Shown: in pieces, positions 14,840 to 62,751 of the stretch
Layout of the letters: the number at the start of each line of letters is the position of its first letter
Numbering within the stretch: position 1 is the first letter of the stretch
Assembly: GCA_942159475.1 (NCBI GenBank)
Contig: OW804096.1
Coordinates: forward strand, 40,175,744 to 40,239,743
DNA from: Sthenelais limicola
Taxonomy: Eukaryota; Annelida; Polychaeta; Phyllodocida; Sigalionidae
Length of the DNA stretch: 64,000 nt
Reading direction: 5' to 3'
Position numbers and translations under genes: made by a program
The notes under the pieces: generated by a model
Databases searched by the model: none
What the model was told of the DNA's origin: nothing
Seen by the model: the letters and a program-made list of their open reading frames with translations, nothing else

Positions 14840-15500
14840 AATCTGACATGTATCACTGAAATTCAAGCTGAATCCTGCCGCTAGGGGGCGTTTTAATCTG
14901 AGTATTTAGTTATATAAAACCATAAATAGAGGACATCATGAGCTTTCATTTGATGTTAATTATATGATTCTACCATAAATATCAGCGATGTTATGAATTT
15001 TTGAAATTTTTACATAATTCGAAATTTTCTCAAACCAAATATTCCTTTAGCTGGGAACTGGGAACTATTCAGTTTAGACGTTAGTGACCATAAACAAAGT
15101 GAAAGACCTTTTCAAGAGCTTTCATTTGAGACAAATGCCAAACAGATCGAACAAATATCTGTCCTTTACCATTTAATTTAATCAAAACAAAAAAAGTGAA
15201 TATTTTTAGATTAATTAATATGACGAAAGGAGATTTATAAGTTCCTAATACATACTGCCTTTTCTAATCTTGTACATTGTTAATGCCATAAAATGATAAA
15301 AGGATTGAAATGCACTAACATTACAAGTTATTTATCAAATAAATAAGAAAAATAGTATCTATATATAAATAAGCCTACATTTGCACAAATCATATGCTGT
15401 GGTCATAAGAGAAAAAAGACGAAGTAATGAACCCAGGTAAACATGGCACAAACTGTTAACTGTTGATACTTACAAATCAAAATCTGATGAGGAACTATTT
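14840..15500. other. AT-rich non-coding stretch
   Basis: No coding signal or repeat with clear ends is visible here. Confidence 0.35.
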
Positions 15501-15640
15501 TGTTTGAGATTCTCTCAGAGTACAATTGAGAATAAAAATCGTGGCCCTCCTTCAAGATTTCCTTTTTTTCCGAAGTTAAATTACCATTTACTACCATTTG
15601 GGATATCGTTTTCTTTTGGACATTATTATTCGGGGAGACA
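15480..15640 (-). pseudogene. LINE ORF2 fragment, linker before reverse transcriptase
   Basis: It reads KKTISQMVVNGNLTSEKKEI, then LKEGHDFYSQLYSERISN. In L1/Tx1 elements this 'INGxxTSxxxEIxxxxxxFYxxLY' block lies between endonuclease and RT. Here it lies upstream of the endonuclease fragment at 14254-14830, so it belongs to a different or rearranged copy. Confidence 0.6.
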
Positions 15641-16150: not shown

Positions 16151-16269
16151 TGATAAATCATGTTTTAAATATTTAGATGTTTATTAGCAAATATAAATGA
16201 TTCGATTTAGGGAATTTTATGATTATTAAAGTTGTTTAAGAACAAGCTGGATTAAACCATGAGGCTTTC

Positions 16270-16590
16270 ATTTTTTTTTACGAACGACTGACTTTTACGA
16301 CCAACTTTTTTTTCGACCAACTTTCAACTCTTTATTTCCGACCAACTTTCAACTTTTTTTTTCGACCAACTTTCAACTTTTTTTACGACCAACTTTCAAC
16401 TTTTTTTTCAAAAAAACTTTCAACTTTTTTCCGGCCAACTTTCAACTTTTTTTTGAAAGTTGAAAGTTTTTTTTCAAAAAAACTTCCAACTTTCAACTTT
16501 TTTTCCGACCAACTTTCAACTTTTTTTTCAAAAAAACTTTCAACTTTCAACTTTTTTTCCAACCAACTTTCAACTTTTTTTACGACTACC
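16270..16590. repeat. pyrimidine-rich minisatellite (cgaccaactttcaac units)
   Basis: About a dozen units of roughly 20-25 bases follow the pattern ttttttYcgaccaactttcaac, with some units carrying caaaaaaact instead. One short inverted stretch (gaaagttgaaag at about 16454) can pair with its neighbours. The gttgaaagt core also opens the 87-bp repeat at 15871. Confidence 0.8.
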
Positions 16591-17032
16591 CTCCCCCTTC
16601 TTCATCCTTCCCCCTACTCCTCTTCTCCCCTTCCCTCTTCTCACCTCTTGCTTTAAGTTATCATTTTCCTCCGTTTTAACTCCATAACGCCACAACGATT
16701 GAATACTATTACTTATGCCCCAAAAACGATTGAAAGCCCACTTCAATTAATTCAGAAAGTTCAACTGTTTATAATTAGATCTGATCTATCTATCTGATAG
16801 ATATCATATTAAAAAATGTGACTAGTATCATGTACCACGCAGTCAAACTTATACATCTGACACCAATTGATATGAGAGGAATATGAACTGGACAGAGGAA
16901 AAGGCTGATAAAAATGACATGAGGGCAGCTGTATGGTCGACCCGAATTGGGTCGGTAGACCCTTCTCAGGAATGTTAGTACAAAAACCGATTTCATGCTG
17001 TCTTGTATTTCTCTAACGAGCAAAACAATTTA

Positions 17033-18276
17033 TTAGGCTTTCTTTAGTTCTATCTCTTTTAATACATGTCTAATATTTTCTTTTTCATTGATTTCTTCCT
17101 GCATTAACATGGTCTTATTGGTGAGCTCGTCCAACTTTCCTTGGAAAATTTTAACCTTACATCTTCTAGCTTTGGCTAGGTCTGAGCTGACAGTTATCGC
17201 TAACTCTCTCACCTTGGGTTTAAGGAATTCCCATTTTAACTTGTCATCTAAATTATTATGAAATATGAAATATTTCTTACAATATACTCCACTAACAAAT
17301 CTATCTTCATTTAATAGAGTCGCATTGAATTTCCAGTAACCCTTGCCTCGTGGGGACAATCCCAAGAACGCTTTCATACTCAGACATCTATGATCAGATT
17401 GAACACTAGAATTTACTCGAAAATCGTTGACCCTTTGAACCACATTGGAAGATACAAATATATAGTCAATCTTGGAAGTGAGGTCTCCTCTTTCCCAAGC
17501 TTCTTTTCTTCCATCTTTTTCTAGGCTTGATCAGATGTCGACTATGTCCATACCACTCATGAAATCTTTCACTATCTTGGCAGAAGGCGATGCTTGCTTG
17601 TTTACGATGTCTGCATTCACATCTCCTGCCACAGTTAGGTTGTCATACGTTAGTGCTTCCAGCTTTTGTCTTATGTCTTTCCACATCCTAGCTTGTTCTT
17701 TGAGATGCGACGAAGTTGGGGCGTAGACATTGCTTAATACTGTATTCAAACCATTGATACATATTGAGATGATTATCCATTTACCTTCATCACAGGCATG
17801 GAGAAGAGAAACATATTGGTATACATCATTCGGGATTAAAAACAGAACTCCTCTTGAGGATGACACACCATGAGAATACAATATTTTTCCACCCCATTGG
17901 GAATTCGATACCTTTTCTGAGTGGAGTGTGATTCTTGTATTGCAACAATAACCCTCTTTTTACTATTATACTTTGTGAATATAGCTTTTCTTTTCTTGCT
18001 TTCATTTAGACCATTTACATTGTGAGAAAAAACCGTTATAGCACCATTCTCCGGCTCCATAATGAGAGTGGAACTCTCTCCCCGTCCTCCCTCTTCGGCT
18101 ATGGGCTTAGCTGTTTGAGCTTGCTTGGGTGCATTAAGAGAAGCTCTCACTACCATCCACATTTTTTCAAGAAAGTTGCCTGACTTCAGCCACGCTTCTT
18201 GGTTGAGCACTTGTGGATTATCTAACCCCATCCCTATTCCCCACACTCTATCTGTTGACGCTTCTCCTATGGCCAT
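17033..18276 (-). pseudogene. L1/Tx1-like LINE ORF2 5' part (endonuclease), truncated
   Basis: Three frames carry one endonuclease in order. First is ITVFSHNVNGLNESKKRKAI and VAIQESHS (18030-17910). Next come SHGVSSSRGVLFLIPNDVY, LSNVYAPTSSH and VAGDVNADIV (17870-17600). Last are SSVQSDHRCLSMKAFLG and RGKGYWKFNATLLNED (17410-17300). These include the usual N, E, GD.N and SDH catalytic blocks. Two frameshifts and stops break it, and the sequence ends before the reverse transcriptase. The 80 residues before the endonuclease are unfamiliar. Confidence 0.75.
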
Positions 18277-18311
18277 GGGTGAGGAACTCTGATTATGGTT
18301 ACTATACTAAG

Positions 18312-32699: not shown

Positions 32700-34325
32700 A
32701 AATCATCACCAAAACCTCTCGTACGTAACACAAATTATCTTGTACATCATGCACCTACTTGCAAGCATTAAAATCGTCATAACTATCTTAATGAATATCA
32801 AAACCTTCTAATAATTAACAGAATTGTCTATCATACGTAATACTACATGAAGACACTCAACTTGCCGAGATTCATACACCTATACTCCTTTTGACCATCA
32901 GAAATAGGTCAACAATTTTTTTTTTTTCATAATCTCAAACTTTAACTTGCAAGGGAGGAACATCAAATATAGTAAAAATCAAATATAATGGCTAGTATGC
33001 AACCCTGAGTTAGTTGTCATTACATATTAGCACCATTTTGGTAACATAGACAACTTGTTCGAATGTTTCTAATACAATAAAGTAAATCTGTCTGATTATC
33101 TTGTATGTCTTGTGGACTCTCGTACATCCTGCACAGACAACCAAGCGTAAATGTTATCATTATAAAATGATCTCCTTAAAACCTAAAAACCTCAAAAGTT
33201 GCAAAAGAACATATGAAATGCTTGATCAGAAGCAAATGGGAACCTTCCCTCAAGTATTTTTTAGTTTTTTTTTAGTTTTTTTTTCCAAAACAGAAAATTT
33301 CCCCTTTTTTCAATTCTAAACATTAAAAATTTCAGAGATTACACATTGATGATCCCAGTATAATGGACGGAAAAGGACTGTGGAAGTCCTTAGATCAAAA
33401 ATCAATCATTTTCATCAAGCACTGATATGAATTTGTATGGTAGTGGGTTACCATACTGAAAACACTACTAAAAATCTTGTATGTACTGCCGGTTTCTTTC
33501 TGCTGCTTGGGCCAACCGAATCTTTCTCTGACTGTCAGTTTCATGCCTTCTGGCACCCTCTCGGAGGCGCTCTGCTTCCTTCTCATAATATACAGCAGCC
33601 CCCATCTCCTCTTTTTTCTTCTCACGATGATCCTTCTGGATCTGTGCATTTGTCTTTCGCAGCATCTTAACATGAAAAAAATAACAAGCATATATTAGAA
33701 CTCAGCATAGGGGACGAAAACCATTTTAAAATTAGTTTGGGGCCACAAAAATCTGAGAAACAGGCAAAAAGTGACGGGGTTGATTTAGCTAAAAATGAAG
33801 TTCTAAGAAGGAAAAAAATACTGGTGCCAAGTCATAACAGTTAATGAGGCGCATCTTGTGTGAAATTTTCACGAGTCTTAACATAAATATTTCTATATGA
33901 AAAAGGTGATAATAGAAAAAAACGTGATGTACGAGATAATCAATTAGGGCACTAAATCAAAATAAATCAGAGATAAACTTCTAACTGTGTCTGCTATCAA
34001 AAGACCTAGTCGAAACCTTTTCAACAAGACCAAGTATAAGCCTGTAGGACGATTTTTAACATTTCCATCACAAAAAACGTGAAATATCTTGTATGTAATG
34101 CGTAAAAGTCTCCTATGTAACTCTAACAACAGTATACAGCCAAATTACAGGTAAATAATTATAGAACTCTGGATTTACGTATCAGTCTGACACAATCGAA
34201 GGTAAACAAAGATTTGTGGACTGAAAAAGATCAGATAAAACCAGATTCTGCACTTGTTTTGTGTTTTTTCCCCCCAAAAAACAGTTGGTGGGATATACGA
34301 TACATACGAGATCTCATTAAACACC
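32700..34325. repeat. left subterminal repeat cluster (TCTCGTACATC-type)
   Basis: Copies or variants of tctcgtacatcctg / tcttgtatgt are at 32717, 32738, 33099, 33118, 33475 and 34087 on the + strand, with the complement at 33928 and 34311. The copy at 33118 (tctcgtacatcctgcacaga) is matched by 40544 in the right cluster (tctcgtacatccttgtgcaga). Confidence 0.75.
33468..33665 (-). CDS. N-terminal exon of transposase-like protein
   Basis: An acceptor with a long pyrimidine run (TTTTTTTCATGTTAAG) immediately precedes ATG at 33665. The exon reads MLRKTNAQIQKDHREKKKEE, then AAVYYEKEAERLREGARRHE and KIRLAQAAERNRQ. It matches in layout the exons at 21077-20924 plus the start of 20690 (basic module, YL/YY, ExxR repeats, ERNR). 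It lies within the 8.6-kb element, so this family is probably carried by that element type. The remainder of the gene is not present. Confidence 0.55.
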   Translation of the reverse strand: MLRKTNAQIQKDHREKKKEEMGAAVYYEKEAERLREGARRHETDSQRKIRLAQAAERNRQYIQDF

Positions 34326-34692
34326 CATTTAACATGGCCTCACACGCAAAATTTATAGTTTGAACATAGCGGTAAACAATTTGAACACTTTAGCTATCAA
34401 AATCATAAAAAATATGACGGATCATTTTTATTAGGAGTATTTATCAGTCAATACACATAAATAACATTGTAATACAGACATTTAAACATTGTTAATAAGC
34501 AGATAGTGTGTTGAGCAGGTAGGAAATAGCCTCAGTCTTAGTCTAGCTAAGTCTGGTAAATTGGTTATTACCTTTACAAATCTTGACCTTCTTCATGTAG
34601 CTGTAGATGAAAGAGACTATTATATCTAAAGAACTAGGAGATAGCTAAGATGATGGATGGGTTGATGAAAAATAGGAGCACATTTAGTACAA

Positions 34693-35160
34693 TTAAATAT
34701 ATAAGGATAACAAGCTTTCGGCCTTGGTTAGGGCCTTGAAACGGTCGTACAAGTCTATATTTCTGGTTTCAGGGTCTAAGTTGTTCCATAGTTTTGCAGT
34801 TTTTCTCTGTATGCAATTCAAGTCATAGTTTACTGTGTTGGGTTTTTGAGAAAGGAGTACGGGTCCATCCCATTGTCTTGTGTTTCTTCTCTCATTGTTC
34901 AAATATCTGTCCTTTTTGCTTCTCCTAAAGGCAAAATTCGAAATATGTGCTTTTCTTCTGTCTTCTAATTTGGGTACATTGGCCAGCCTGTGAATTAACA
35001 GGGTATCAGTGAGGATGGGAAGCTTTAAAGCCACCTTTATACATTTATTCTGAAGGATTTGGAGTGCATTCAATTCATTCACATTACAGCCACTATAGGT
35101 AATGTCTCCATAATCAAATAATGGTAAAATATGACTTTTGAAATTTTTAGTAAGACATAC
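34693..35160 (-). pseudogene. LINE ORF2 C-terminal region
   Basis: It continues the RT gene past its frameshift: SHILPLFDYGDITYSGCN, then NELNALQILQNKCIKVALKL and LIHRLANVPKLEDRR. This is the usual region after RT in Jockey/CR1-type LINEs ('ILPxxDYGxxVW...LQxxQNKxIR'). It ends with a stop at 34693. Confidence 0.8.
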
Positions 35161-35250
35161 TGAGGTACAAGCCTTGATATTCTTCTTAACAGATAAAGTT
35201 TATGACTTACAGACCTATGAGTTTGCTTAACTTGGGCAGAGAATTTTAAG

Positions 35251-36513
35251 TTAAGAGTCTAGAGTTATTCCCAGGTATTTATACTCTTCTACATTATCCA
35301 GCAGGATATTATTTACAGCAATATTAGGTTGGATATTTCCTACTCTTGATCTTTGTCCTCTAAGGTGCATACACTTTGTCTTGGTTACATTTAGAGTCAG
35401 CTTGTTACTTTGACACCAATTCCAAAAATTAACAGTATCTTCTTGGACTTTCTTATTGAGTTCAACAATATTTTTGTCATTACAATATATTACAGTATCA
35501 TCAGCGAATAACTTAATTTTACAATGTCTGAGACTATGTTCAGCATCATTTATATATATTAAAAATAGTAATGGGCCAAGTATAGAGCCTTGAGGTACGC
35601 CATAATTAATTTTCCTGACAGTGGAGGTAACATTATTGCAAATAGTAACTTGGGTCCTGTCTGATAAGTAATTTTCCAATAAGGACAGCAGATTACCTTT
35701 GATACCATATTTGTTCAGTTTAGACAGTAGAATATTGTGATTAACAGTGTCAAACGCCTTTTTCAGGTAAAAAAAACCCACTGCAATAGAAGTTTCTCCA
35801 TTATTCCTATCATTAAGTATATCATCAATAAGATCAGCTATAGTGTCTATGGTAGATTTCCCTTTTCTATAGCCATTTTGTTTTTCAGAAATGACATGAT
35901 TATTTTCAAAAAATGCTATTAGTCTGCTATGAATTAAAATTTCCATAAGTTTCGCCTGTAATGGTAATTGTGTGATGGGTCTATAGTTTGACATAATCGA
36001 TTGATCCCCACCCTTAGGTAGAGGAGTAACACTTCCATTTTTCCAAGATTGAGGTATACAGTTTGAGGAGAATACAAGATTAAAAATATGGCACAAGACA
36101 TTAGGTATTGTCATAAAGACATCTCTAAACACTAGAGATTTGATATGTTTTATATTACTAGACTTGTTCACATTTATTTCCCTGGCTATTTTTTTGATTT
36201 CTTCAGGAGAAGTGTTCACATTGTCTAGAGAGTTTGCGCATTCTAGGCCAATGAAATTCCATTGGGCATTAATGTTTTCAGCTAATGATTCACCAATTGA
36301 TGCAAAGAATTCATTAAACTTAGTGGCCACTTTAGTTACTGGTACAGGTACATTTGAGGTACTGTCTATAATATGTATTTCTTGATCTTTGTTTTTTGAT
36401 TTCTTGGGTAATAAATTATCTACTAGCTTCCAAAACTTCTTATCGTCATCTATACATTCATTACTTAATTTAGTTAAATATTTTCTCTTAGCTCTTCTAC
36501 ACAGTCTGGTCAA
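35251..36513 (-). CDS. LINE reverse transcriptase
   Basis: A 420-residue open frame in a -1/+1 relation to the endonuclease frame, which it overlaps by four bases (36510-36513). Motifs appear in order: IPQSWKNGSVTPLPKGGD, SNYRPITQLP, EKQNGYRKGKSTIDTI, LKKAFDTVNHNILLSKL, YGVPQGSILGPLLFLIYIND, the catalytic KLFADDTVIYC, and LTLNVTKTKCMHL plus EYKYLGITLDS. The first catalytic Asp block reads FYLKKAFD where most have DLxKAFD, so one Asp is replaced by Tyr. The final catalytic pair is intact. Confidence 0.92.
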   Translation of the reverse strand: MTRLCRRAKRKYLTKLSNECIDDDKKFWKLVDNLLPKKSKNKDQEIHIIDSTSNVPVPVTKVATKFNEFFASIGESLAENINAQWNFIGLECANSLDNVNTSPEEIKKIAREINVNKSSNIKHIKSLVFRDVFMTIPNVLCHIFNLVFSSNCIPQSWKNGSVTPLPKGGDQSIMSNYRPITQLPLQAKLMEILIHSRLIAFFENNHVISEKQNGYRKGKSTIDTIADLIDDILNDRNNGETSIAVGFFYLKKAFDTVNHNILLSKLNKYGIKGNLLSLLENYLSDRTQVTICNNVTSTVRKINYGVPQGSILGPLLFLIYINDAEHSLRHCKIKLFADDTVIYCNDKNIVELNKKVQEDTVNFWNWCQSNKLTLNVTKTKCMHLRGQRSRVGNIQPNIAVNNILLDNVEEYKYLGITLDS

Positions 36514-37574
36514 ATTATTTCTAGCTTTTTATCTTCACGCTTTCTAGATTTTTTGGCTTTCATTAGGGCTTTGTCTTTATCTCTAATCATTATCAATAGG
36601 TCATCAGTTAGCCATTTCTCTCTTGGAGGAGTAATGTTTCTCTGAACAATAGGACATGTGTTGTCTAAGATATCACCTAACATCAATAAAAGTTTTTCCC
36701 ATGCTTGTTGTGGGTCATTCATTTCAGTTATACAGTTCCAATTTAAGTATTTAACAGCAGCAATAAAATCATGTGAGCTATGATTCTTGTAATTTCTATA
36801 CTCAACAACTCTACAGCTTTTCTTCTTTAGTTTTTGGTTTTTGAGAGTAACAAAAGTCATAAGATGGTCAGCTACCCAGATATCTATAACACCACTTGAA
36901 CTTACATAGTCCTCTTTACTTAAAATAAGGTCAATACAGGATTCAGAGATATGGTCTTTGTCCCTTCTTATGTCAAAGCGTGTAGTTTCTTTTATAAGCT
37001 GAGTTAGTCCAAATTCATGAGCAATATCAGTGAGAGATGTTACATGCCTACATTCGTTATCAAACATGTTTATATTAAAGTCCCCAGCTACAACAATATC
37101 ACAGCTGTTATAATTTAGTATTTGAGATGATAATGTATTTTGTAGTTCTTGTAGGAATAAGTTAGAGTCTCCATCCGGTGGTTTGTAATTTCCTATTAAA
37201 TGTAAATTTCTCTTATTTTCAAATAAAATAGTACAGCACATTAACTCAATGTTTGGATTTGATTTAAACATATTTTCTTGTATTTTAAAAGTTAGACCAT
37301 TTTTTATGTAGCATCCTACACCTCCACCTCCCTTGATGGTACCATCATCATGTAACACTGCTCTGTCATTACGAATAATGTTGTTGTATCCCTGTATTTC
37401 AAAATCAATTGACCTGTCATAAGATGTTAAGAAAGTTTCTGTACATATTACAATTTCTGGGTTAAACTGAGAGATCCCATTTTTAAGATTAAATAGATTA
37501 GTTTTGAGCCCTCTAACATTGATACTTATAATACTGAAACCATCCTTATCAAAACCATGCTGGTCACCCATCAA
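36510..37574 (-). CDS. LINE apurinic-like endonuclease
   Basis: A 354-residue frame. It has the exonuclease-endonuclease-phosphatase fold blocks SIISINVRGLKTN, EIVICTETFLT, GGGGVGCYIKNGL, LHLIGNYKPPDGDSN, IVVAGDFNINMFDN and SCIDLILS, and then WVADHLMTFV, where the usual SDH has become ADH. It nicks the target DNA to prime reverse transcription. After the domain comes the basic linker (REKWLTDDLLIMIRDKDKAL) that leads into RT. It starts 105 bases after the end of the SGNH-like frame. Confidence 0.9.
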   Translation of the reverse strand: MMGDQHGFDKDGFSIISINVRGLKTNLFNLKNGISQFNPEIVICTETFLTSYDRSIDFEIQGYNNIIRNDRAVLHDDGTIKGGGGVGCYIKNGLTFKIQENMFKSNPNIELMCCTILFENKRNLHLIGNYKPPDGDSNLFLQELQNTLSSQILNYNSCDIVVAGDFNINMFDNECRHVTSLTDIAHEFGLTQLIKETTRFDIRRDKDHISESCIDLILSKEDYVSSSGVIDIWVADHLMTFVTLKNQKLKKKSCRVVEYRNYKNHSSHDFIAAVKYLNWNCITEMNDPQQAWEKLLLMLGDILDNTCPIVQRNITPPREKWLTDDLLIMIRDKDKALMKAKKSRKREDKKLEII

Positions 37575-37678
37575 TGATAGTGTTGAATTGAATCACTTTG
37601 TGTGAACTCCCATAATAATGAGGGTGATGGAGATATATTATCTCTAGTTAGTTATATCTAGTTAACTTAAGACATTGA

Positions 37679-38310
37679 TTAGACGGTGTCAGGTTGCTTT
37701 AGACCTTCAATAATATCAGTAAAATAGCTATTTTCCATGAAGTTTAAGATGTTTGCCTCCAGATTTCTCCAAAGAGTACAACTTTGCTTATCGATCAAGT
37801 CGTCACATTGATGGATTCCATCTTCAAGTAAGCTGTAGTTGTGTTTTATAGATCGACCATTCGTCATGTGGTTATATCTTGTGATCCAGGGAGTTGTGAC
37901 ATTATTTTCCTGATTAATTTGCTGTATATACCTGTTTATTTCAATGATGGCCTCATTTAAAATCTGTTGTTTATCATTGCCTAGGTTCAAGCAAAACTTC
38001 CCAGATCAGCTACTATGATCGGGCATATGATTATCGGTGAATTTTGATGATGACTTCTCAAGCGATCAGTGTTTGTTGCTATTTCTGTCTTCATATGAGA
38101 TAAGAGTGATTCAGTCGTAGACCATGAGAAGGTGAAAACATTCTTTCCTTGCCCTTTTCTTCTCTTTGTAGTAATGTCGCAGATACCTGCCATTGTACCA
38201 AGATGTGTCCGAATAGGGTTTAGTTCAGACTTTAGTTTCCTTCCACGTGAGTCTGTGAATAGGTTTGCGGTGATTTGAGATCCATATGTCGGCGAGAAAT
38301 CCATATCCAC
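37679..38310 (-). CDS. SGNH-hydrolase (esterase)-like ORF, split by a frameshift
   Basis: The first frame (38310-37987) starts MDMDFSPTYGSQITANLFTD and carries SRGRKLKSEL. The second frame (37990-37679), overlapping by four bases, carries TPWITRYN and LLEDGIHQCDDLIDKQ. This fits the SGNH pattern of a nucleophile Ser in 'DSxG/R' near the start and a catalytic Asp-His in 'DGxH' near the end. Some CR1-type LINEs carry an esterase domain in ORF1, so the role may be similar. A one-base shift would join the halves. Assignment rests on short motifs. Confidence 0.55.
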
Positions 38311-38333
38311 CTCTTGTTTACATTTGTTTGAGA

Positions 38334-39528
38334 CTATCGAAGGACGGCCCTGACCTCCTCAAGCTTCCACCCGAGTATGTTTCGGAAGCCTTCGGTAATT
38401 CCCGTAACCTCCTTTGCCTTTCGGATATCCTTACCGACTCCCCATTTTTTGTTATCTGTACACTCATACAGGTGTTTATTACCTGTGGAGACAAGATAGT
38501 CCCGATGCTTCGTATTTTGGTCGAACTTAGCCATCAAGACCCTTAACATCACATCATCTTCTCTTGCCAACCACTCAACATTATCATTCGGGAAATTCCG
38601 GGCGAGGTATTTACAGCGCCTCGGGTCCTTCTCGTTTGTTATGGTCAGAGCCAGATCTGGGTCACCGAAGTGAATGGCCTTCTCCGCCTGGAACATGGCC
38701 TCCGCACTTTTATAGACATATCCAGTGTCTGTATCTACGATTCGGCAAGGGCTAAAGTTGGAAAGATATGCCCTCTCCCCCTTGAAGCCTATACCATCGT
38801 CTCCAGTGGTTTCAATAGCCGTAGCATTGAGACTTACGTCGGCAGGAAGGCGATCCCATTCACCCCATTTAATTTTTCTATCATTGATAGTTAACATGAG
38901 GCCCCGGACTTGGGTCGTTCTATAACCACCTAATTTTTTCATCACATATGCTAGCCCTCGTAGATCACCCTGCTTCTTCCTGTCGTTGATCGATAGGTCA
39001 TCATTCAGGAATACGCCATTGAAGCCTACTTTCAGCTTTTGGGCATTTTTTAACATGGCTGCCTTCTGTTCGACGTTCCTCAAGTGGATCATGAGATTCC
39101 TTGCCTTTTGTGGACGTTTCTGGCCTAGCCTGAAGGCGCGAAGAGTATCCCTAGCTGTGAAATTAACTCCGAGGTGAGTCAACAAGTCATTTATTTTTAC
39201 TTGCAGATCCTCGTTGTTTTCCTCTGCCAGGCCCGTGACAACCACATTGAGTGATCGTTTAAGCCTGTCAGCGTTGTCAACCCGATCCGCAATGGCTGTC
39301 AGCTCTCTCTTCCCGATCAGACCTCGCCTCCAACTGCCGTACTCGATTCCTAAACTTGGTGTTGTCTTTTCGTTCTTGATCTAACGCCTTTCTCAGATAG
39401 TTTAGTTCATTGCTGTTATTCCTTACTAGATTGTCAAGGAACATCAACTTTTTCCTAAGCAACTCCGAGCGAGCCTTCTCTGTTTTGGCACCAGCCGGCC
39501 ACTCATCTAACCCCAGTAGGTCGGCCAT
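38334..39528 (-). CDS. LINE ORF1: coiled coil + RNA-binding domain + NADAR domain
   Basis: It starts MADLLGLDEWPAGAKTEKAR at 39528 with a helical segment (LRKALDQERKDNTKFRNRV), then a one-base frameshift near 39300. The frame then reads LKRSLNVVVTGLAEENNEDL, LRAFRLGQKRPQKARNLMIH and MLKNAQKLK, which is the RRM-like domain of L1-type ORF1 proteins. The last 150 residues are a NADAR (YbiA/RibX) domain: AYLSNFSPCRI, YKSAEAMFQAEKAIHFGD, CKYLARNF, EWLAREDDVMLRVLMAKFDQ, KKWGVGKD and ILGWKLEEVRAVLR. The E of SAExxFQAxK and the WGxG are kept. NADAR enzymes act on N-glycosidic bonds of ribosyl or ADP-ribosyl substrates. Confidence 0.88.
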
Positions 39529-39600
39529 GTTTGGTTCACAAAAACATTTCCGGTTTTTATGGCGTAAATCTCCGGGATAGAAAGATAAACTAATGTTCAA

Positions 39601-40764
39601 CGACTGGTAGAACTATTTATACGTCTGACAGACTCGATATGCGAGCGGTAATCCAGCTGGTGCTTTAATTCAGTGAGTTATAAGGTGGAGCGTGATGCAA
39701 CTACATGTGTATAGTTTTTGAGGTGCAAATTGTGATGAATTGTACATCTTGCTAAAGTTAGGAGAAATGATCCTGGGCCAAAACTCTCGTTTGTCCTGCA
39801 AAGATCGGCCCGAGTGAAAGTTATATTCAACGTATTCTTTGTTACAATGAAAATCACACCTGCAGACTATAAACAACATGGCCACACGCGCTCCCCTACC
39901 ACTTCGCTACGAAAATAAACCCCGGTTTTGCCGTTTTATCCATGTAATCGGGCATAATAAACCTCCACACAGAACCTTGACATGATCAACTTCGAAAATC
40001 TAAGATAGTTTCATGTTTGGTATAATGTGAATATAACTATTTATGTAAAAAAAAACCGTAAGAATTACGGCCGTTGCGAACTTACCTTGCTACTTCCAAA
40101 GCGTCACTGAAGGTGGCAGTGTTGTAGTTCCGGTGTAACAGGTAATAGCGTCATGAAAAAAAGGCAAAAGAGTCCCGCGCTCTCGTACGTAACCCGATCG
40201 TTATGTACGTCCTGTGTCTACATTTGCATTCGTTTGGGTATGTTCCCATGATAGAAGACTTCCGATTTTTTTACACATTAAAGCTATATACATTGACATA
40301 CTGGTCAGTTAATATGATGATATTTCTGGCATTTCCCTTTAAGATTTGAAAGGAATTGTTTTTGTTACATACAAGATGTCAGTTAGTATAATTTTGATTC
40401 AAGTGATCCAGCTCTGTCAATTTTAGGATCAAGTATTTAATATTTCTCATGATAAACTCATCTTAGTGGAGGTTCGAAAAAATGTTTTCCTTAGATTTCT
40501 ACATCAATTACAAATGGCCAGTATACACACTTTTTACATAATATCTCGTACATCCTTGTGCAGACATGGATTTTGATTTCATCATTTTTTGACAGAACCA
40601 ATAATCAGAATTCCTTCAAAATTACTGAGGTATCAAGGGAGACCCTATTCTTGCATACGAAGTAGTAAAAATGAGTCCCTGTTCCTGTATATCATTGTAA
40701 TTTGATCATATAATAACGAATACCACTGATGCCAAAATGTGGCCATTTTTGGGCGATTTGACCC
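39601..40764. other. right part of the 8.6-kb element, with subterminal repeats
   Basis: No coding exon is supported. Variants of tctcgtacgtaa / tctcgtacatcc lie at 40191, 40368 (inverse) and 40544, and the terminal inverted repeat ends at 40764. The part up to about 39990 may be LINE 5' untranslated sequence. Confidence 0.5.
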
Positions 40765-40771
40765 ACCTTAC

Positions 40772-41017
40772 GAGTAATAGTCTGTCATAAGCAACTTCGA
40801 CTTTTTGCATCTTTCGGCCGTCTTGGCTTTTTTGCACCCGTCACAAACCACCTTTCTTAGCCTTCACTACCTGGCCGACCATATAGGTGTCATCCAGTCC
40901 ACCAATATCGATGAAATCACCGAGAGTCACCATGGTCGTGTCATCGCGCATGGCAAACATCCAAGCTTCAGGGAAATTCCCTCTCAACACTAATGTGCCA
41001 ACATGGCTGGCCATTTC
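40772..41017 (-). pseudogene. exon of unrecognised protein with Cys motif, frameshifted; interrupted downstream by the 8.6-kb element
   Basis: The acceptor GGCTTGCAG opens EMASHVGTLVLRGNFPEAWM, FAMRDDTTMVTLGDF and DDTYMVGQVVKAKK, followed by a stop. In a +1 frame the sequence continues VCDGCKKAKTAERCKKSKL, then LMTDYYS, and meets the donor CTC|GTAAGG at 40770-40771, so one base was gained or lost near 40860. The CxxC...C pattern could bind zinc. The target duplication of the 8.6-kb element covers intron positions +4 to +7, and the natural next exons may be at 31527 and 30333. Confidence 0.5.
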
Positions 41018-41496
41018 CTGCAAGCCAAAACAAACCCATTAAATTAACAAGAAATTCATATGATGACAAAATGACAATGAAAGGCGATTGTGCCTCGTGC
41101 CACCCACAAAACACGAGAAATAAGTAGAGAAGCAGTAATAGCCGTGTTACTCTTAAGTTTCGTACTCGGCGTGCTACGTGTATGTACAACAGTCACAGCA
41201 TTACTATTAAGGCAAGCATGGAAAAATTGATAGTCGTGACTTAAGTTTAATAGGTTCTATTGATATTGGCGATGACAGTTCTGCCACATTTGGTTAACAG
41301 GACGATCTGAGTCCTACTTCTATGGTCATAACAAATGCACATGGCGTGCAGTTAAATGTAAAGACGAGATTGTGCGAGTCAATGGACATTAATGTGAATC
41401 AGCCGGGTAATAATCGCAAGTAAATGTTACTGTCACTACCGATATTTAAGCCCAGTATTCAATATGAATTTGTATGGGAGAATATATTTTCAGTTT
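41018..41496. other. non-coding stretch
   Basis: Upstream flank of the exon at 40772-41017. No further exon or repeat is recognised. Confidence 0.35.
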
Positions 41497-41805
41497 AGTG
41501 TCTGACCAATTAGTTATCCGATAGTACAGTGGTGGCACAATCGTGTCACGCTTGTGCTCCTCCTTTGCCCATCTAATGGCACTTCCCCGATTAAAACAAT
41601 GAACAGCAGTGACAATACTAGTCGATTGTGGAATAAAGGAATAGCAGAATAATAATTAGTGTCTGACAAATTAGTTATCCGATAGTACAGTTGTGCCACA
41701 CTTGTGCTCCTCCTTTGCCCATCTGATGGCATTTCCCCGATTAAAAACAATGAACAGCAAAGTGACAATAGTACTCCAATGTGGAATAAAGGAATAGCAT
41801 ACCTA
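41497..41805. repeat. tandem duplication, about 161-bp unit
   Basis: The unit agtgtctgacMaattagtta starts at 41497 and 41658. The copies share cgcttgtgctcctcctttgc-type and gtggaataaaggaatagca blocks with scattered differences and small deletions. Confidence 0.8.
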
Positions 41806-50856: not shown

Positions 50857-53800
50857 AGTCCGGGAGCCAGAGGGTTGAACCCCGCAATGTCGGATAAAGT
50901 TTTTTTTTTCGCTGTTTCATGTAGCCTAGGGGTAGGTAATCACAAATCAGGGGGGTGACCGTTCCCACCTATTGAGCAATTTTAGATATTAACCCTTTTA
51001 TCCTGGTCATGCCAATATACCCCAAATACAGGATTTTATAGGATTCATAGCATTCATTTATTCTGATCTGAATAGTGCACTTTGTGACACCTTTTTGAAA
51101 TTTGGTATGCTGTTAGAACAGGTCATAAGGTTTTTAAAAATCACTGGCTACAAGTTGGGGGAGAACCCTGGTGGCCGGTAGCTGCAAAATTCAAAATGGC
51201 TGCCACCAAACATCAAATGCACCATAGTTTGGCTTCTACTGGCTGGATTTTCAAGTGTGATACCACTTTTCAGATGTTTTTAAGTATGAGAAATTCATTT
51301 CTGTGGACTGTATTGAGTTTCAAGGTCATTTCAAGGTCAGAATCCAACATGGCTGCTGCCATGAAACTAGAATGTCATAGCTCAGCTCCAATTAACCACA
51401 CATACTTCTGTAACACCAGTTTTAATGTGTTTTCAGGAGTGAGGAAACTATTTCTAAAGTCATTTCTCTCTTTTGAGGTCATTTTCTAGGTCAAAATCCA
51501 ATATGGCTGCCATTGAGGGGCAAGAATGTAATATCTCAGCTGCTATTTGCACTATAACTGTGTTAGTGAGGTAGCTTGAGGCCAGATTTGAGATAGATGT
51601 GGATGGATCAAAGGGCCAAATTTACCCCACATGCTGTCCATGTACTTTATGATTTCTATATGAACTACTCTTGTATATTATGGTGGCCATCTTGGATTTC
51701 CAAGGTCACCATTATGTAAAAACCTATATCTACCAATATCTCAGCTTCTAAACTACTCAGGATCACCATCTTGGTGTCTAAACATACATTTTCTGGGTCA
51801 AGGAATACAACTACACCATTTAGAAAAGGGCGAGATTGGTTTTAGTAACACACAATTTGTATTTGACAATATATTCTCATTAGGCACATGCTATTTAATG
51901 TTGCCTCACTTCTCAAAATGACAAATAGTAGAGTTCAGTGCAGTACTGACTGTCTTCATTTATAGACCAGCCCAAACCTTCTTGACTAGATGAAGTGGTC
52001 CATTCCAGAAGTTGGAAATATTGAGCACCAACCTCCATTTAGAAGCACCATTACTTGCCTTTACCAAAGAATGTAGACTTGAAACCCCAGGCAAGTAATT
52101 GTAGATCTAGCATTGATGTGATGATTTCTAAAGTTCTTGCCTGTACAAAGGCCATTACCAGCTTACTCATAATCACATTGTGCCATGCATTGATCAGTTC
52201 CTCAATAAAAGATTTGTGACTCCAGATTGTTGGTTGGGTCATGCACAAAGTCAGCCAGATTGGTTGTTCTTATCACTTTTCTCAAAGACCCTTATCTTAC
52301 TAAGTTCAACACCTTTTTTGAGTTCTCTAGTTGTTTTAAAAGATCTGACCATCATGCTTAAGAAATATTATAGTGTTATCAATAGGAAGCAAGTGCAGCA
52401 CATCAACTCCATCAAGAAACATCACATTAAGGATGGTACCCTTGGTGTGAATGTTCAGCAGATTAGATGTCTTTCTGAAGTACAATTTTTCACCATCTAA
52501 TAGGGCAGAGGCAAGGGATTCTGAAAGCGGAAGGATTCCCAGTCAAACTGACTATATACCCCAAGACCACTTGACCATTTCATTATATTGTGTATGGGCT
52601 TTATAAATTGGTATATTCAAGAATTTATTGGCAGATTTGTGAAAATCCCAGTGACTGTGCTAGTCAGACTCTTTGAGAATGGATGGAGGTTGGTAATCTC
52701 TCCATGTCTCAGATGTGTATTGAGATCCACCATGGGATTTCGATTACATTGTCCAATCCACAGTGGCAAAATGTTCATCTTTCTTGGTTGGGTCATGCAA
52801 AATGTCAGCTGGGGTGTTCTAGAACAACATGATCATAGAGCCAGTACCTTCATGTCTTCAATGTGCAATGTGATGAAGATAAGGCATAGGTGTTCCATGT
52901 TGTGAACAGCATCCCAACACTTGAATATTGGACTCTATTACACCATTTCCTGCCTCCATGGTTCCATTGATAAGTACCTTTTTGGAGAAGGGGAGGGGAC
53001 CAGCCAGAGCTTTGCAAGAGCCAAAACAGCCACATTACATGGTTTTTAACAAGAGTCACAAGTGGCTGATTATGCAATGGCTGATTTTGCAAGTGCATTC
53101 TTCCATTGAAATCCCTCCAAGTAGTCTCTGTAATCTTATCTCACTGTTATTATGTACAGTCCACCCGACATGGATATGAATCTTTCTTCTCCAGGGATGT
53201 GAACTTATTATTAGTATTGGTGATATTACTTCGGAATGAATTAATAGATGTTACTGTTTGGTTATCACTACTATAATAAAGAAAGTATAACACAGCTCAC
53301 ATAGCCATTTCAAATGTCAGGTATGATATATATAAATGTCTTTCATAGGTATGTCAGACAAGAAATGTACAATAAAAGAACAACTGTAAGGTGGAAAAAG
53401 TATGTAGCCCAATGCAGCACATTCATTCTATGTCTGATCATTATTATTGTAGCTGCTCTCTTGTAGAAAATGGGCAAGAACTATGTATTCATGTGGGCCA
53501 TGTTATCTGTGGACAGTGGGGCCTACAGTGAACTGCAATAGGTGTGTCAAAGAGTGAAAGAGAATGTGGTACAATGTGGGCATGTTGGAAGTGCACTAAA
53601 GTCTCCTGTTGCCAATTTTGAGAAGTGAGGAAAGCTTAAACGGCCAAAAGGGCCTGATGAGAATATACTGTGAAATACAGTTGTTAAAGCCAATCTGGTC
53701 TTTTTTTAAATGATATAGTTGTATTCCTTGACCCAGAAAATGTATGTTTAGACACCAAGATAGTGACCCTGGGTGGCTTAGAAGCTGAGATATTGGTAGA

Positions 53801-54682
53801 TATAGGTTTTTACATAATGGTGACCCTGGAAATCCAAGATGGCCACCATAATATACAAGAGTGGTTCATATAGAAATCATAAAGTACATGGACAGCATGT
53901 GGGGTAAATTTGGCCCTTTGATCCATCCACATCTATCTCAAATCTGGCCTCAAGCTACCTCACTAACACAGTTATAGTGCAAATAGCAGCTGAGATATTA
54001 CATTCTTGCCCCTCAATGGCAGCCATATTGGATTTTGACCTAGAAAATGACCTCAAAAGAGAGAAATGACTTTAGAAATAGTTTCCTCACTCCTGAAAAC
54101 ACATTAAAACTGGTGTTACAGAAGTATGTGTGGTTAATTGGAGCTGAGCTATGACATTCTAGTTTCATGGCAGCAGCCATGTTGGATTCTGACCTTGAAA
54201 TGACCTTGAAACTCAATACAGTCCACAGAAATGAATTTCTCATACTTAAAAACATCTGAAAAGTGGTATCACACTTGAAAATCCAGCCAGTAGAAGCCAA
54301 ACTATGGTGCATTTGATGTTTGGTGGCAGCCATTTTGAATTTTGCAGCTACCGGCCACCAGGGTTCTCCCCCAACTTGTAGCCAGTGATTTTTAAAAACC
54401 TTATGACCTGTTCTAACAGCATACCAAATTTCAAAAAGGTGTCACAAAGTGCACTATTCAGATCAGAATAAATGAATGCTATGAATCCTATAAAATCCTG
54501 TATTTGGGGTATATTGGCAAGACCAGGATAAAAGGGTTAATATCTAAAATTGCTCAATAGGTGGGAACGGTCACCCCCCTGATTTGTGATTACCTACCCC
54601 TAGGCTACATGAAACAGCGAAAAAAAAAACTTTATCCGACATTGCGGGGTTCAGCCCAAAAATGGCCTTTGGCTCCCGGACT
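50857..54682. mobile_element. 3.8-kb element with about 1-kb inverted repeat arms
   Basis: The ends are agtccgggagcca at 50857 and its complement ending at 54682, with tat on both outer sides if the terminal t/a is included. The arms, 50857-51930 and 53600-54682, are reverse complements. They are almost identical over the outer 950 bases (a 97-codon frame at 51196-51489 recurs exactly at 54333-54040) and diverge toward the centre. The right arm carries a 12-base insertion near its end. The 1.7-kb centre has decayed coding-like sequence on the - strand (LDLQLLAWGFKSTFFGKGK) that I cannot assign. Fold-back transposons have this form. Confidence 0.8.
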
Positions 54683-54954
54683 ATATCAGTTTCAAGAGTA
54701 GCCTACTTTATTTTGTCTGTCCATGTTTTAGGTTACCCTCTTGATTTGCCTACCATTGCATTATTTATCATTGCATCCCGTTGTCTATGGGGCGCCAAGT
54801 GTCAACCTCACAATTTCGTTGATTACTAACCTTTTTCGTTAACAAAATGGGCATTTAATAACGAAATTGTAATTTTGTTCATTTACAAATGAATTTTGTA
54901 AATGAAATAACTATTTTGTTCATTCAGCAATGAATTTTGTGAACGAAATGAATT

Positions 54955-55560
54955 TTGTGCAGTTGCAAAGTAGATTTTGTCTACGAAATGGATTTTGTGC
55001 AGTTGCAAAGTAGATTTCGTCTACGAAATGAAAATTGTGCAAAGCCACAGTCAATTTTGTCAACGAAATGGATTTTGTGCAGTGCCAATGTCAATTTCGT
55101 CTACGAAATGGATTTTGTGCAGTGCCAAAGTCAATTTCATCTACGAAATGGATTTTGTGCAGTGCCAAAGTCAATTTCGTCTACGAAATAAATTTTGTGA
55201 TGTCTCAAAGTCAATTTCGTCTACGAAATGAAAATTGTGCAAAGCCACAGTCAATTTTGTCTACGAAATGGATTTTGTGCAGTGCCAATGTCAATTTCGT
55301 CTACGAAATGGATTTTGTGCAGTGCCAAAGTCAATTTCGTCTACGAAATGGATTTTGTGCAGTGCCAAAGTCAATTTCGTCTACGAAATGAATTTTGTGA
55401 TGTCTCAAAATCAATTTCACGAAATGGATTTTGGATGGATGGAGTTGCCAAAGTCAATTTCGTCTACAAAATGGATTTTTGGCAGTGCCAAAGTCAATTC
55501 TGTCTACGAAACGAATTTTGTGCAGTCCATTCGTCAATTTTGTCAATGGGTTTTGTGCAG
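54955..55560. repeat. left tandem array, 57-base type units
   Basis: Units like caatttcgtctacgaaatgg plus attttgtgcagtgccaaagt repeat about ten times. Several are nearly identical, and a longer block of several units is itself duplicated (55021-55140 resembles 55222-55341). Within each unit atttcg and cgaaat can pair. Confidence 0.85.
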
Positions 55561-56450
55561 TGCCAAAGTCAATTTCGTCAATTTCGCCAGTTTCGCCAAT
55601 TTAGTCAGTTTCACCAATTTAGTCAGTTTCACCAATTTAGTCAGTTTTGCCAATTTAGTCAGTTTTGCCAATTTCGCCAGTTTCGCCAATTTCGCCAATG
55701 GGTTTGGTGCAGTGCCAAAGGCATTTTCGTCAGTTTTGCCAATTCCGCCAATTTAGTCAGTTTTGTCAGTTTCGCCAATTTCGTCGGTTTCGCCAATTTC
55801 GTCAGTTTTGCCAATTTTGTCGGTTTCGCCAATTCAGTCAGTTTGGCCAATTTAGTCAGTTTCGCCAATTTAGTCAGTTTCGCCAATTTAGTCAGTTTCG
55901 CCAATTTAGTCAGTTTCGCACAGTTTTGCCAATTTCTCCATTGGGTTTGGTGCAGTCATTTTCGTCAGTTGCGCCAATTTCGTCCGTTTCGCCAATTTCG
56001 CCGGTTTGGCCAATTCCGTCCGTTTTGCCGGTTTGGCCAATTTCGTCCGTTTTGCCAATTTCGCTGGTTTGGCCAATTTCGTCAGTTTCGCCAATTTCGT
56101 CGGTTTGGCCAATTTCGTCAGTTTCGCCAATTTCGTCAGTTTCGTCAATTTAGTCAGTTTCGCCAATTTAGTCAGTTTCGCCAATTTCGCCGGTTTTGCC
56201 AATTCCGTCAGTTTTGCCAATTTCGTCAGTTTCGCCAATTTCGTCGGTTTGGCCAATTTCGTCAGTTTCGCCAATTTAGTCAGTTTCGCCAATTTAGTCA
56301 GTTTCGCCAATTTAGTCAGTTTCGCACAGTTTTGCCAATTTCTCCATTGGGTTTGGTGCAGTCATTTTCGTCAGTTTCGCCAATTTTGTCGGTTTCGCTA
56401 ATTTAGTCAGTTTCGTCAGTTTCGCCAATTTCGTCAGTTTCGCCAATTTC
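55560..56450. repeat. central 18-base tandem array
   Basis: About 45 units of the type ttYgccaatttMgtcagt. A larger block that includes ttgccaatttctccattggg occurs twice (around 55920 and 56330). Because 18 is divisible by 3, all frames stay open. Confidence 0.9.
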
Positions 56451-57060
56451 ATTTTGTACTTGTATCAATTTTTCAAAATTCATTTCGTACACAAAATTGG
56501 TTTGAGATAGCACAACAATCATTTCATACACCAAATCGACTTTGGGAGTGCCCAAAAATCATTTCGTAGACAAAATTGACTTTGGGACTGCACATAATTC
56601 ATTTTGTAGACAAAATCGAATTTGTGAAGGCACAAAATTCATTTCGTCAACGAAATTGATTTTGTGACTACACAAAATCCATTTCGTCTACGAAATTGAT
56701 TTTGTAACTGCACAAAATTCATTTCGTCTACGAAATTGATTTTGTGACAGTACAAAATCCATTTCGTCTACGAAATTGATTTTGTGACTACACAAAATTC
56801 ATTTCATAGACGAAATTGATTTTGTGACTGCACAAAATCCATTTCGTCTACGAAATTGGTTTTGTGACAGTACAAAATCCATTTCGTAGACGAAATGGAT
56901 TTTGTAACTGCACAAAATTCATTTCGTACACGAAATTGAATTTGGGACTGTACAAAATCAATTTCGTAGACGAAATTGAATTTGGGACTGCACATACTTC
57001 ATTTCGTACACGAAATTGAAGATGAATGGACAAATTAACTATTCCGTTGACGAAATGAAT
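56450..57060. repeat. right tandem array, inverse orientation
   Basis: Units of 57-60 bases, aaattcatttcgtctacgaa plus attgattttgtgactgcac, repeat about ten times. They are the inverse of the left array, so the arrays can pair across the element. Confidence 0.85.
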
Positions 57061-60353: not shown

Positions 60354-60639
60354 AAGAATATTAATCATTAGCCTATTATTATTCTCGAGTCCATTTTTTT
60401 TTATCAAAGAATACGAAAAGAAATTTTATTGAACACCCTTTCAGGTCTTCAAGTGAGCAGGGGTTTTGAGTATTTACAAATGGATATAGAACCATCTGAT
60501 ATTTCGCCACTCAGATGCAAATAAAATCGATTAAATTACAACTACACATCATCATGACGTCACAGAACTCCAACAAGTGCATCGCCAACCCCGCCAGCCC
60601 CTATAACTGGATAACTGACGCGTCCACACCTGTGGCGGG

Positions 60640-60710
60640 AACTGACGAGGCCCTCGTGTTGCATTCTGGGTAGGCCACGTAGTTTACACAACCTCGTCTT
60701 CATTTCCAAG
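60640..60710 (+). promoter_or_regulatory. probable SLC39A7 proximal promoter / 5' UTR
   Basis: The start codon lies in ccaagATGgcagc. This is both a strong Kozak context and a YY1-type site of the kind often found at start codons of housekeeping genes. No TATA box is seen. Confidence 0.4.
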
Positions 60711-61190
60711 ATGGCAGCTTCCGTAGCAGGCCGGCTTGTTGTGACTTCGCTGTCCATATTTATTGTATTTTCGTGCTTTTCGTCTATCTCTAGTCATGGC
60801 CATGGCCACGATCATCACGGCCACAGTCACGATGAACCTTCACATTTTAAATATTCGAAGGAAGCTAATGAAAACGCTGATTTAAATCAAAATGCAGGCC
60901 ATCACGGCCATAGCCATGAAGACCACCACGGCCACGATCATGGCCATGGGCACGATCATCATGCACACAATCATGATCATGGACACCAGCATGGACATGG
61001 TCATTCTCATGATCACACAGAAGAAGCCAAACCACAACAAGCTGCTAAGAAGGCTGCACCTAGGAAAGACACTGGGTTGATGTTGTGGGCTCAAGCCCTC
61101 GGCTCTACTGCACTCATCAGCGCCGCCCCCGTTGTCATTCTGTTCCTTATCCCCATTCACAACGCCCATGAACGTCAGCCCCTTCTCAAG
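60711..61190 (+). CDS. SLC39A7: SLC39A7 (ZIP7) zinc transporter, exon 1
   Basis: 160 codons, from the ATG to the donor CTCAAG|GTATGG in phase 0. ZIP7 moves zinc out of the ER and Golgi into the cytosol. Residues 1-27 are a signal peptide or hydrophobic segment (VVTSLSIFIVFSCFSSIS). Residues 29-110 are a lumenal His-rich segment with HGHDHHGHSHD and many HxH pairs that may bind zinc. The first conserved membrane segment follows (WAQALGSTALISAAPVVILF, then LIPIHN). The ATG is the first in frame and has a strong context. Confidence 0.93.
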
Positions 61191-62751
61191 GTATGGAGTG
61201 AATTTATATATCACTAATAGAAAAGTAGATGAGAGGGAACGATATAAGGGGATTTTTGTTAATTCAAGGGTGCTCAAAAGGTAGAGAATGACCAACTGAT
61301 TTGGAAAGATCTGGTCCCATAATGGATCCATAGTTTTAGCAGGGAGCCACCGGCCTGGTTTTAATATTTTTGGTAAGTTTTACTCTTTAGTTTAGTTCAG
61401 GCATAGGCATAGCCGTGGCCCATGCCCATCATGGCCATATGCCCTAAGGCAAATATCATAAATATGCCCATAATATATTGCCGATTACCAGGTAGCCCGG
61501 TAGGCCTATCTGTAACCTGGTTTTCTTTATTCTGCTTTTTTCAGGTGCATTTGTCCATGATTTGAGGTACGGTAGATGAATAGGCCTATATTGATTAGGT
61601 TGAATATCCACCTCTGGGTCAACTCGGGATAGGCCGAGTTGGTGATACAAACTATATATTGATGATTATGTTTCATGTCCGTCTACCCGAGCTAGAGACA
61701 GTGTTGCATAAAAACGGAAGGAATACCGAGCCAAAGGGCATGCCATGTGTATCTGCCATAGACCCAATTTTGACTACTTTTCACTCATTTTAATTGATGC
61801 AAACAAATCCACTTGTTCAGTATCATTGAATATTTCGTACGGTTAACAGTCAGTGGACTGCAGAATTCTTCCTCTGCTATCACTGCTGTAGTAACCAATA
61901 ACACCCAACGTGTGGGGTCAAAACAAAAACTATTCTCTATTTACACACCTCTCTAACTCTTAAGTTGCTGATTTGATATCAGTCCTACAATCAGGAAGTC
62001 ATATTTGTTATTAACTTTTTCTTTTCATTACTTATATATGGGGAAAGTCTGATAGACTCTCACACCCGCTCTTGTATGTAGGCCTATGGACCTCCCTTCT
62101 TTGTCAGTAATGAAGGTTGGCAATACTTCACTGAGTAGAGAGGGAGTAGAATTGAACTAAGTTGCTTGTCTGACTCTAAATGCACTGATAAGGGATACTT
62201 CACCTAAATGTTAGAGATACATACTTCCATAATAATATCTATATATAGGAAGTCGAATGCCACGTTAGTGCGTAGAGTTCAATTATCATTCAGGATCGTA
62301 CTCTCCCCCTTCTATTTCTTCTATTTCTTCTATCTCTCTCTCCCCCCCCCCCCCCACACACACACACTGTCAGAGTGTGTCTGTGTGTGACTGTCTGTCT
62401 CTCTGTATTTGACTGTCCATATATGTGTGTTTGACTCTGTCTCCCTCTGCCCCCTCTCTCTCTATCTATCTGTCTATCTATCTATCTCCCTTCTCTCTCA
62501 ACTATTCAGAAAATGATACATCTTCACCTCCATTCTCTTTGTTATACTAGTATGTTTCATACACAACCCAATTTTCTGTTATCGTCATCTTTTACTTTTA
62601 TGTTATTTATAGCTGAACTTAAATAAATCACCCTATTCATCTCATCTCATTTGACTAGCCCTCACTGCCGTGAATATGACTCCACTTGGTTGTTGTCACG
62701 GCATTAAGCAACCATCACTCAACTCACCCACTCTTCACCTTCATTCTGCAG
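61191..62751 (+). other. SLC39A7 intron 1
   Basis: A 1561-base intron, GT...AG (TTCATTCTGCAG). It holds a microsatellite cluster at about 62330-62492, with runs of C, CA, TG/TC and tatc. No other feature is visible. Confidence 0.85.

Follow-up and report, generated by a model that had tools for sequence, protein, structure and literature searches.

The stretch of DNA analysed here (the window; 64 000 nucleotides of contig OW804096.1 of the annelid Sthenelais limicola) contains, on its minus strand, a degraded long interspersed nuclear element (LINE) of around 5.3 kb, termed element A, whose first open reading frame (ORF1) ends in a NADAR domain. The limits of DNA similarity to the related genomic loci L009-L016 place the element at 34425..39715. 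Alignment to other copies puts its 5' end near 39709-39715 and its 3' end, with an AATAAAA-type tail, near 34425. APE-type endonuclease and reverse transcriptase (RT) domains in ORF2, together with the A-rich 3' tail, identify it as a LINE. A repeat search of positions 33500-41500 found no long direct repeats flanking the element, and Rfam and tRNA scans of the window gave no matches.

The feature under study is the C-terminal portion of a LINE ORF1 that encodes a putative coiled coil, an L1-type RNA recognition motif (RRM) with a C-terminal domain (CTD), and then NADAR. The NADAR domain (38337..38798, minus strand, 154 aa) forms the C-terminal end and is in frame with the RRM and CTD (38799..39302, minus strand). 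The stop-to-stop frame at 38334-39380 (minus strand) has 348 codons and contains LKRSLNVVVTGLAEENNEDL, LSNFSP, SAEAMFQAEKA, VMLRVLMAKFDQ, KKWGVG and ILGWKLEEVR. The original prediction of an uninterrupted minus-strand frame stands for these 348 codons. The longer span 38334-39528, however, is interrupted near 39300 by a change of frame, since ORF1 begins at 39528 (MADLLGL) in a different frame, with a stop at 39277. The ORF1 register is not shared by the initial 26 codons of the 348-codon frame; continuity with relatives extends over 38337-39302, a stretch of 322 aa. In the window copy the ORF1 N-terminus (39277..39528, minus strand, MADLLGL...) thus differs in frame from the rest, but in intact relatives of element A it shares one register with the RRM. 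It resembles a coiled coil by eye, with weak Pfam matches to coiled-coil-type models and, in the relatives, a heptad-like, helix-rich stretch that is also recognized by eye.

The NADAR profile PF08719 matches residues 202-348 of the 348-codon frame with E=4.3e-27 and 95.8 bits, far above the cut-off of 35.1, so that a NADAR domain in frame with ORF1 is present as predicted. Since profile positions 9-163 of 163 are covered, the domain is complete and a chance match is excluded; its predicted fold is of the YbiA type. The RNA-binding part had also been assigned to the L1 type. The succession of L1-type RRM and CTD is clear in the predicted fold, but by sequence the profile comparison with L1 ORF1 proteins in the PDB falls below significance (E=0.03). 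Searches for relatives with a single protein recovered none at E<=0.001 among 2680 candidates for the 348-aa frame, and none at E<=10 among eight candidates for the 154-aa NADAR domain. A search with the ORF1 alignment (7999 candidates scored) found a single protein, P0001, of 654 aa from a public contig (E=1.9e-44), and an IMG/VR scan gave six pattern matches, of which none was confirmed.

The other parts of the window copy are broken, in agreement with the original prediction. The remains of a second ORF, SGNH-like by motifs found in intact relatives, lie in two frames at 37679..38358 (minus strand); this ORF is around 110 nt shorter than that of L010, at 38214/38194, with a change of frame. 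The endonuclease part of ORF2 is located at 36510..37592 (minus strand; PF03372, E=3e-07; PF14529, E=3.5e-07), and the RT and C-terminal part, split by a stop, at 34693..36528 (minus strand; RVT_1, E=9.3e-36; 84% alignment to the L010 ORF2), so that ORF2 as a whole is divided into the frames 37592-36510, 36528-35251 and 35199-34693.

Relatives in the genome and their LINE classes

The genome searched comprises 1.13 Gb. With the element A NADAR as query, 150 of 5013 candidates were scored; all 150 matched at E<=2e-17 and 135 lacked an internal stop, with identities that fell in steps of approximately 90-94, 80, 77, 71, 47, 41 and 38%. With PF08719, 150 of 5561 candidates were scored, all above the cut-off and 148 without a stop. 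Both lists are lower bounds on a large number rather than a census: at least two places are common to them, and a single copy is in some cases represented by several rows. Across contigs C1 to C9 the same domain order recurs in numerous open ORF1 frames. The original prediction had named two outcomes that would speak against it, the lack of a NADAR match and the lack of further fused copies, and neither occurred.

Twenty stretches of 10 kb and six of 6 kb were retrieved for NADAR. In seven of the twenty 10-kb loci (L010, L011, L012, L019, L020, L022 and L028) three ORFs are all open, namely an ORF1 with NADAR at its end, an SGNH-like ORF and an ORF2 of 960-992 aa. ORF2 is broken in L013, L015 and L017. 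Relatives of element A have an ORF1 of 414-457 aa, and more distant elements one of 582-778 aa, in which an RRM-CTD-like stretch (by eye) precedes NADAR and a tail often follows it. Pfam scans, made for 20 of the 29 ORF1 frames (L009-L036 and P0001), detected NADAR in all 20 proteins, including P0001.

Elements were also sampled by their RT. Three were picked from an RVT_1 search (150 scored of 29006 candidates); NADAR is present in ORF1 of L035 (E=2e-22) and L036 (E=1.7e-17), and L037, having no readable ORF1 upstream, is uninformative on this point. The L028 RT gave 69 matches; the four elements taken from among them all have NADAR upstream, that of L047 being a 116-codon piece. The overall proportion (six of seven) gives no genome-wide share of NADAR-bearing elements, because these four are related (72-79% RT identity) to L028, an element chosen by its NADAR in the first place.

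The SGNH-like ORF lies between the RRM-CTD-NADAR ORF1 and ORF2 in L010, L011, L012, L019, L020, L022, L028 and L034, and no SGNH-like frame of comparable length was found in L018, L023 and L025, for example. The motifs D18-S19, G77 and D199-x-x-H202, which correspond to SGNH blocks I, II and V, are invariant in nine of nine aligned second-ORF proteins, and it is on these motifs that we call the ORF SGNH-like; six such proteins gave no Pfam match on scanning, and the PDB yielded no relevant match.

The ORF2 of L010 matches human L1 ORF2p with E=1.7e-15 (59 bits over 969 aa). Stronger matches to L1 ORF2p, by comparison, are given by L036 (2e-31) and the second RT of L027 (1e-57), which are thus L1/Tx1-like; judged by its relative L010, element A has an ORF2 far from that of L1 and would lie outside the Tx1/L1 clade. 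The L010 ORF2 carries the GVPQGSILGPLLF motif, which is associated with the CR1/L2/Jockey group; by this RT motif and the form of ORF2, element A is probably CR1/L2-like. In L027 the L1-like RT lies behind an ORF1 and SGNH-like remains, with a CR1-like endonuclease further down, and its own ORF2 is ambiguous.

A second, 5'-truncated element of the window, element B, is L1/Tx1-like, and it was compared with the loci already retrieved. Its NADAR C-terminal piece (18106..18306, minus strand), which shares a frame with the beginning of the endonuclease, is under the Pfam cut-off of 35.1 when taken alone (E=0.0076, 17 bits), but the piece at 18300-18106 matches the L036 ORF1 (E=2e-10) and P0001 (E=7.6e-07). 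The endonuclease part of ORF2, in several frames (17036..18114, minus strand), matches ORF2 of L036 (E=4e-49) and L037 (E=2e-50), and a stretch just before the RT domain (15475..15624, minus strand) matches that of L036 (E=9e-06); ahead of the latter there is an insertion of around 1.4 kb with tandem repeats (15870-16646). As element B aligns with L036, both kinds of LINE have left NADAR pieces in the window. Further LINE pieces, several of them nested fragments, occupy 13723-14828 (minus strand) within the element B stretch; they include a second set of L1/Tx1-like endonuclease fragments at 14753-14299 (minus strand) and a C-terminal piece with a Cys/His-rich motif, recognized by eye, at 13723-14178 (minus strand).

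In the best tree, 25 NADARs, from the genome and including P0001, are separated from six phage and Escherichia coli NADARs (five phage, and YbiA) with support of only 71/76. Two loci on contig C1, L038 (396-853 region) and L039, have a near-identical lone NADAR frame of 162 codons outside any long ORF1, and this type groups with the NADARs of L1/Tx1-like LINEs. The topology test rejected (p-AU 4e-07) a grouping of the 23 LINE-type sequences that leaves out L038 and L040, both lone frames; this group was defined with the tree already known. The result suggests an origin of the two lone frames from LINEs. LINE lineages are documented to have exchanged ORF1 (PMC4120745), and a single capture of NADAR with later exchange of ORF1, or several captures, would both fit; the tree neither demonstrates nor rejects a single capture.

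Constraint and active-site residues

The NADAR domain is under purifying selection, which is seen on both sides of the junction in ORF1. The dN/dS ratio (omega, NG86) of NADAR is 0.066 between the window and L010, 0.058 between the window and L011, and 0.058 between L010 and L011. With one more codon these values become 0.070, 0.065 and 0.065, with bootstrap limits inside 0.024-0.137. For RRM-CTD the same three pairs give 0.083-0.103, and ORF2 gives 0.063-0.095 in four non-saturated pairs. The NADAR omega is 0.124 for L012-L013, and in L019-L020 the nonsynonymous proportion of differences (pN) is 0.106 against a synonymous proportion (pS) of 0.776; many pairs were saturated at synonymous sites and yield no omega, and pairs with dS <0.05 are uninformative. 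The dN/dS test suggested by the original prediction thus came out in favor of constraint.

In the element A family (ten copies; L009 was left out beside L008, which is the same place) changes are nonsynonymous in seven of 67 single-change codons, against 78.7% expected (p=8e-33; 30 multi-change codons were skipped), the share being 5/37 among singletons and 2/30 among shared changes. Changes found in the window copy only number 12 synonymous and four nonsynonymous, as would fit a function that was lost recently. Over 13 of the 20 long loci, distances in NADAR correlate with those in RT (Mantel r=0.921, a value that none of 5000 shuffles reached), and between far families identities are 25-40% for NADAR and 24-49% for RT. 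Because the copies share descent, these tests show a lineage under constraint and are silent on what the constraint is for. The SGNH-like ORF is under looser constraint than NADAR, with omega values of 0.22 (L010-L011), 0.079 (L012-L013) and 0.76 (L015-L016), the last being affected by the end of the L016 frame, which looks shifted.

Active-site residues were compared in 31 sequences (23 LINE-type, two lone frames and six from phages and E. coli, the phage sequences being five of 169 matching phage records), with residue names and numbering as given in PMC11543638. The window NADAR keeps the equivalents of all eight residues, E43, K50, K75, R79, W89, R93, E125 and W133. Its equivalents of E43, K50 and E125 are E33, K40 and E112, the set that marks the YbiA subfamily. 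All 31 sequences have E43, W89 and E125, and W133 is kept in 30, whereas R93 is missing also from all six phage and E. coli sequences. Three loci, L019, L020 and L022, have a well conserved NADAR domain without the K50-equivalent lysine and the R93-equivalent arginine; judging from these residues, a changed ligand is possible. By the same residue comparison most, perhaps not all, of the LINE NADAR families should be competent for the known reaction.

Possible functions of the NADAR domain in ORF1

A NADAR domain kept by selection within an RNA-binding protein suggests that it protects or processes the RNA or DNA of the element. The original prediction had proposed that it may counter an ADP-ribosylation-based or nucleotide-based host defense or modify the element's own RNA or DNA, and from the known chemistry of NADARs this is plausible. 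L1 ORF1p, the ORF1 protein, trimerises and coats the element RNA (PMC3905857). NADARs are the sole hydrolase family reported to reverse ADP-ribosylation of guanosine bases in RNA (PMC11833690), and they reverse guanine ADP-ribosylation on DNA too (PMC11543638, PMC11125620). This chemistry and the attachment to an RNA-coating ORF1p make guanine-ADP-ribose cleaning the most economical reading: with a probability of roughly 45%, the tethered NADAR removes guanine-linked ADP-ribose from the element RNA, and possibly from cDNA or target-site DNA. A multimer of ORF1p would coat the LINE transcript, and the attached NADAR would sit on the RNA, near the cDNA and the target site. Cleavage of the N-glycosidic link would then free guanine bases of ADP-ribose, so that the template would stay copyable when guanine-directed ADP-ribosyltransferases of the host or its parasites act. 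Domain identity, predicted fold, retained ADP-ribose-site residues, a domain order conserved in many families and purifying selection are computational observations; the enzymatic activity, the substrate, the ribonucleoprotein (RNP) setting, taken from L1, and the opposing transferase we infer.

Several points weigh against this reading. The K50 equivalent is Met, Leu or Cys in four of the 23 LINE-type sequences (L019, L020, L022 and L036) and Arg in three (L033, L034 and P0001); K50 is reported to be essential in the E. coli C7 NADAR, in which Arg works in vitro but gives no rescue in cells (PMC11543638). Only eight of the 23 retain the R79 equivalent, and only eight the R93 equivalent. NADARs outside DarT operons are reported to be active but to rescue poorly from DarT1 (PMC11125620), so their natural substrate may be something other than guanine-ADP-ribose in DNA. 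The substrates of YbiA are riboflavin intermediates, in which it cleaves N-glycosidic bonds (PMC11543638). A guanine-N2 ADP-ribosylating activity on DNA is described in six edible clams (PMC11209040), and such an enzyme could be named as the opposing transferase by analogy only. A more far-reaching reading, less likely than not, is that in this animal LINEs of at least two supergroups carry a base de-ADP-ribosylase built into their RNA-coat protein as a counter-defense against guanine-directed ADP-ribosylation of retrotransposon RNA or DNA; if true, base ADP-ribosylation would be an undescribed layer of control over retrotransposons.

It is rather unlikely, but the best of the alternatives, that NADAR acts on other ADP-ribose substrates, such as ADP-ribosylated proteins of the RNP, soluble derivatives or immune nucleotide signals. 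NADARs of animal RNA viruses have been proposed to counter macromolecular ADP-ribosylation, and phage ones soluble derivatives (PMC9503650), and the loss of phosphate-binding residues in some LINE families would permit a shift of ligand. However, fusion to an RNA-binding protein favors a nucleic-acid substrate, and activity of NADAR on proteins was not found in the cited literature, of which no systematic search was made. The loss of the K50 equivalent in L019, L020, L022 and L036 while the whole domain is conserved, with constraint evident in L019-L020 (pN well under pS), would also fit a mainly non-catalytic module that binds ADP-ribosylated nucleic acid or protein, or adds an RNA-binding surface; this we regard as improbable, given that both catalytic Glu equivalents are invariant and that element A keeps all eight residues. 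Slightly less probable again is processing of the element RNA outside defense, for example the removal of another base adduct, a role suggested in passing for Ectocarpus and oyster elements (PMC12477816) and in keeping with the N-glycosidic cleavage by YbiA; no such NADAR substrate appears in the cited literature. That a host NADAR gene was inserted by chance, or joined by chimeric assembly, beside a dead LINE might be supposed from the degraded window copy, but both are ruled out by the repeated domain order and by purifying selection on either side of the RRM-CTD/NADAR junction.

Other features and comparison with known systems

Elsewhere in the window, an element at 8102-12680 (minus strand) combines a tyrosine recombinase of the phage-integrase type (E=1.5e-09) with an RT (RVT_1, E=1.7e-24), and on this ground looks DIRS-like. 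An inverted repeat at 50872-51849 and 53680-54657 has arms of 978 nt, 98% complementary and spaced by 1830 nt. Long tandem arrays with units of 18 and around 40 nt occupy 54860-57019, one of them yielding a 401-codon open frame of repeats. By eye, histidine-rich frames at 60615-61217 and 62680-63141 (plus strand) look like zinc-transporter exons of the ZIP type (SLC39); the first of the two had no match in Pfam.

The role of NADAR in animals is stated to be unclear (PMC11125620). A NADAR held by selection in the RNA-binding protein of a large and diverse set of LINEs gives this question a testable setting, and raises another: does base ADP-ribosylation restrict retrotransposition, with ORF1p undoing the modification? 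If active, the domain would be a second enzyme, besides the SGNH esterase, among the few catalytic functions in LINE ORF1 proteins.

The fusion of NADAR to ORF1 has itself been published. A 2025 paper (PMC12477816) reports a YbiA-family NADAR in Pol of one Gypsy lineage of the brown alga Ectocarpus, and notes in a few sentences that Repbase ORF1 proteins of several Crassostrea gigas Tx1 LINEs appear to bear NADAR; a role in processing RNA intermediates is proposed. Apart from it, no paper joining the NADAR domain with transposons was found among those listed from the open-licence PMC literature (bioRxiv excluded). NADAR is thus inside ORF1 in the oyster elements, as in element A, whereas in the Ectocarpus Gypsy elements it is inside a different retrotransposon protein. 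Element B and L035/L036, with an L1-like ORF2, look the same kind as the oyster elements, compared by description only; element A differs from these in an ORF2 far from that of L1 and in having three ORFs. The passages on the oyster elements contain no selection test, fold or residue survey.

The NADARs of Phytophthora nicotianae (8bau), E. coli YbiA (2b3w), DarT1-linked systems and phages are described as stand-alone proteins or antitoxins, in contrast to that of element A, which forms the C-terminus of a LINE ORF1 protein. The 169 phage records that match the element A NADAR all have <60% identity to it, and the 30 listed have approximately 35% at most. Type II (L1-type) ORF1 proteins (PMC4120745; human L1 ORF1p, 2ykp) consist of coiled coil, RRM and CTD, behind which the element A ORF1 has the extra NADAR; the term NADAR is absent from the main text of PMC4120745. 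In its SGNH-type motifs the second ORF of element A relatives resembles the SGNH esterase ORF1 of CR1 and RTEX elements and of ZfL2-1 (PMC3905857). No esterase ORF1p with an RRM was found in that 2013 survey; elements of the element A type combine the two features, but in different ORFs, the SGNH-like one lying next to that for RRM, CTD and NADAR. What is new here is the CR1/L2-like three-ORF carrier, the scale of the family, its selection and the survey of active-site residues.
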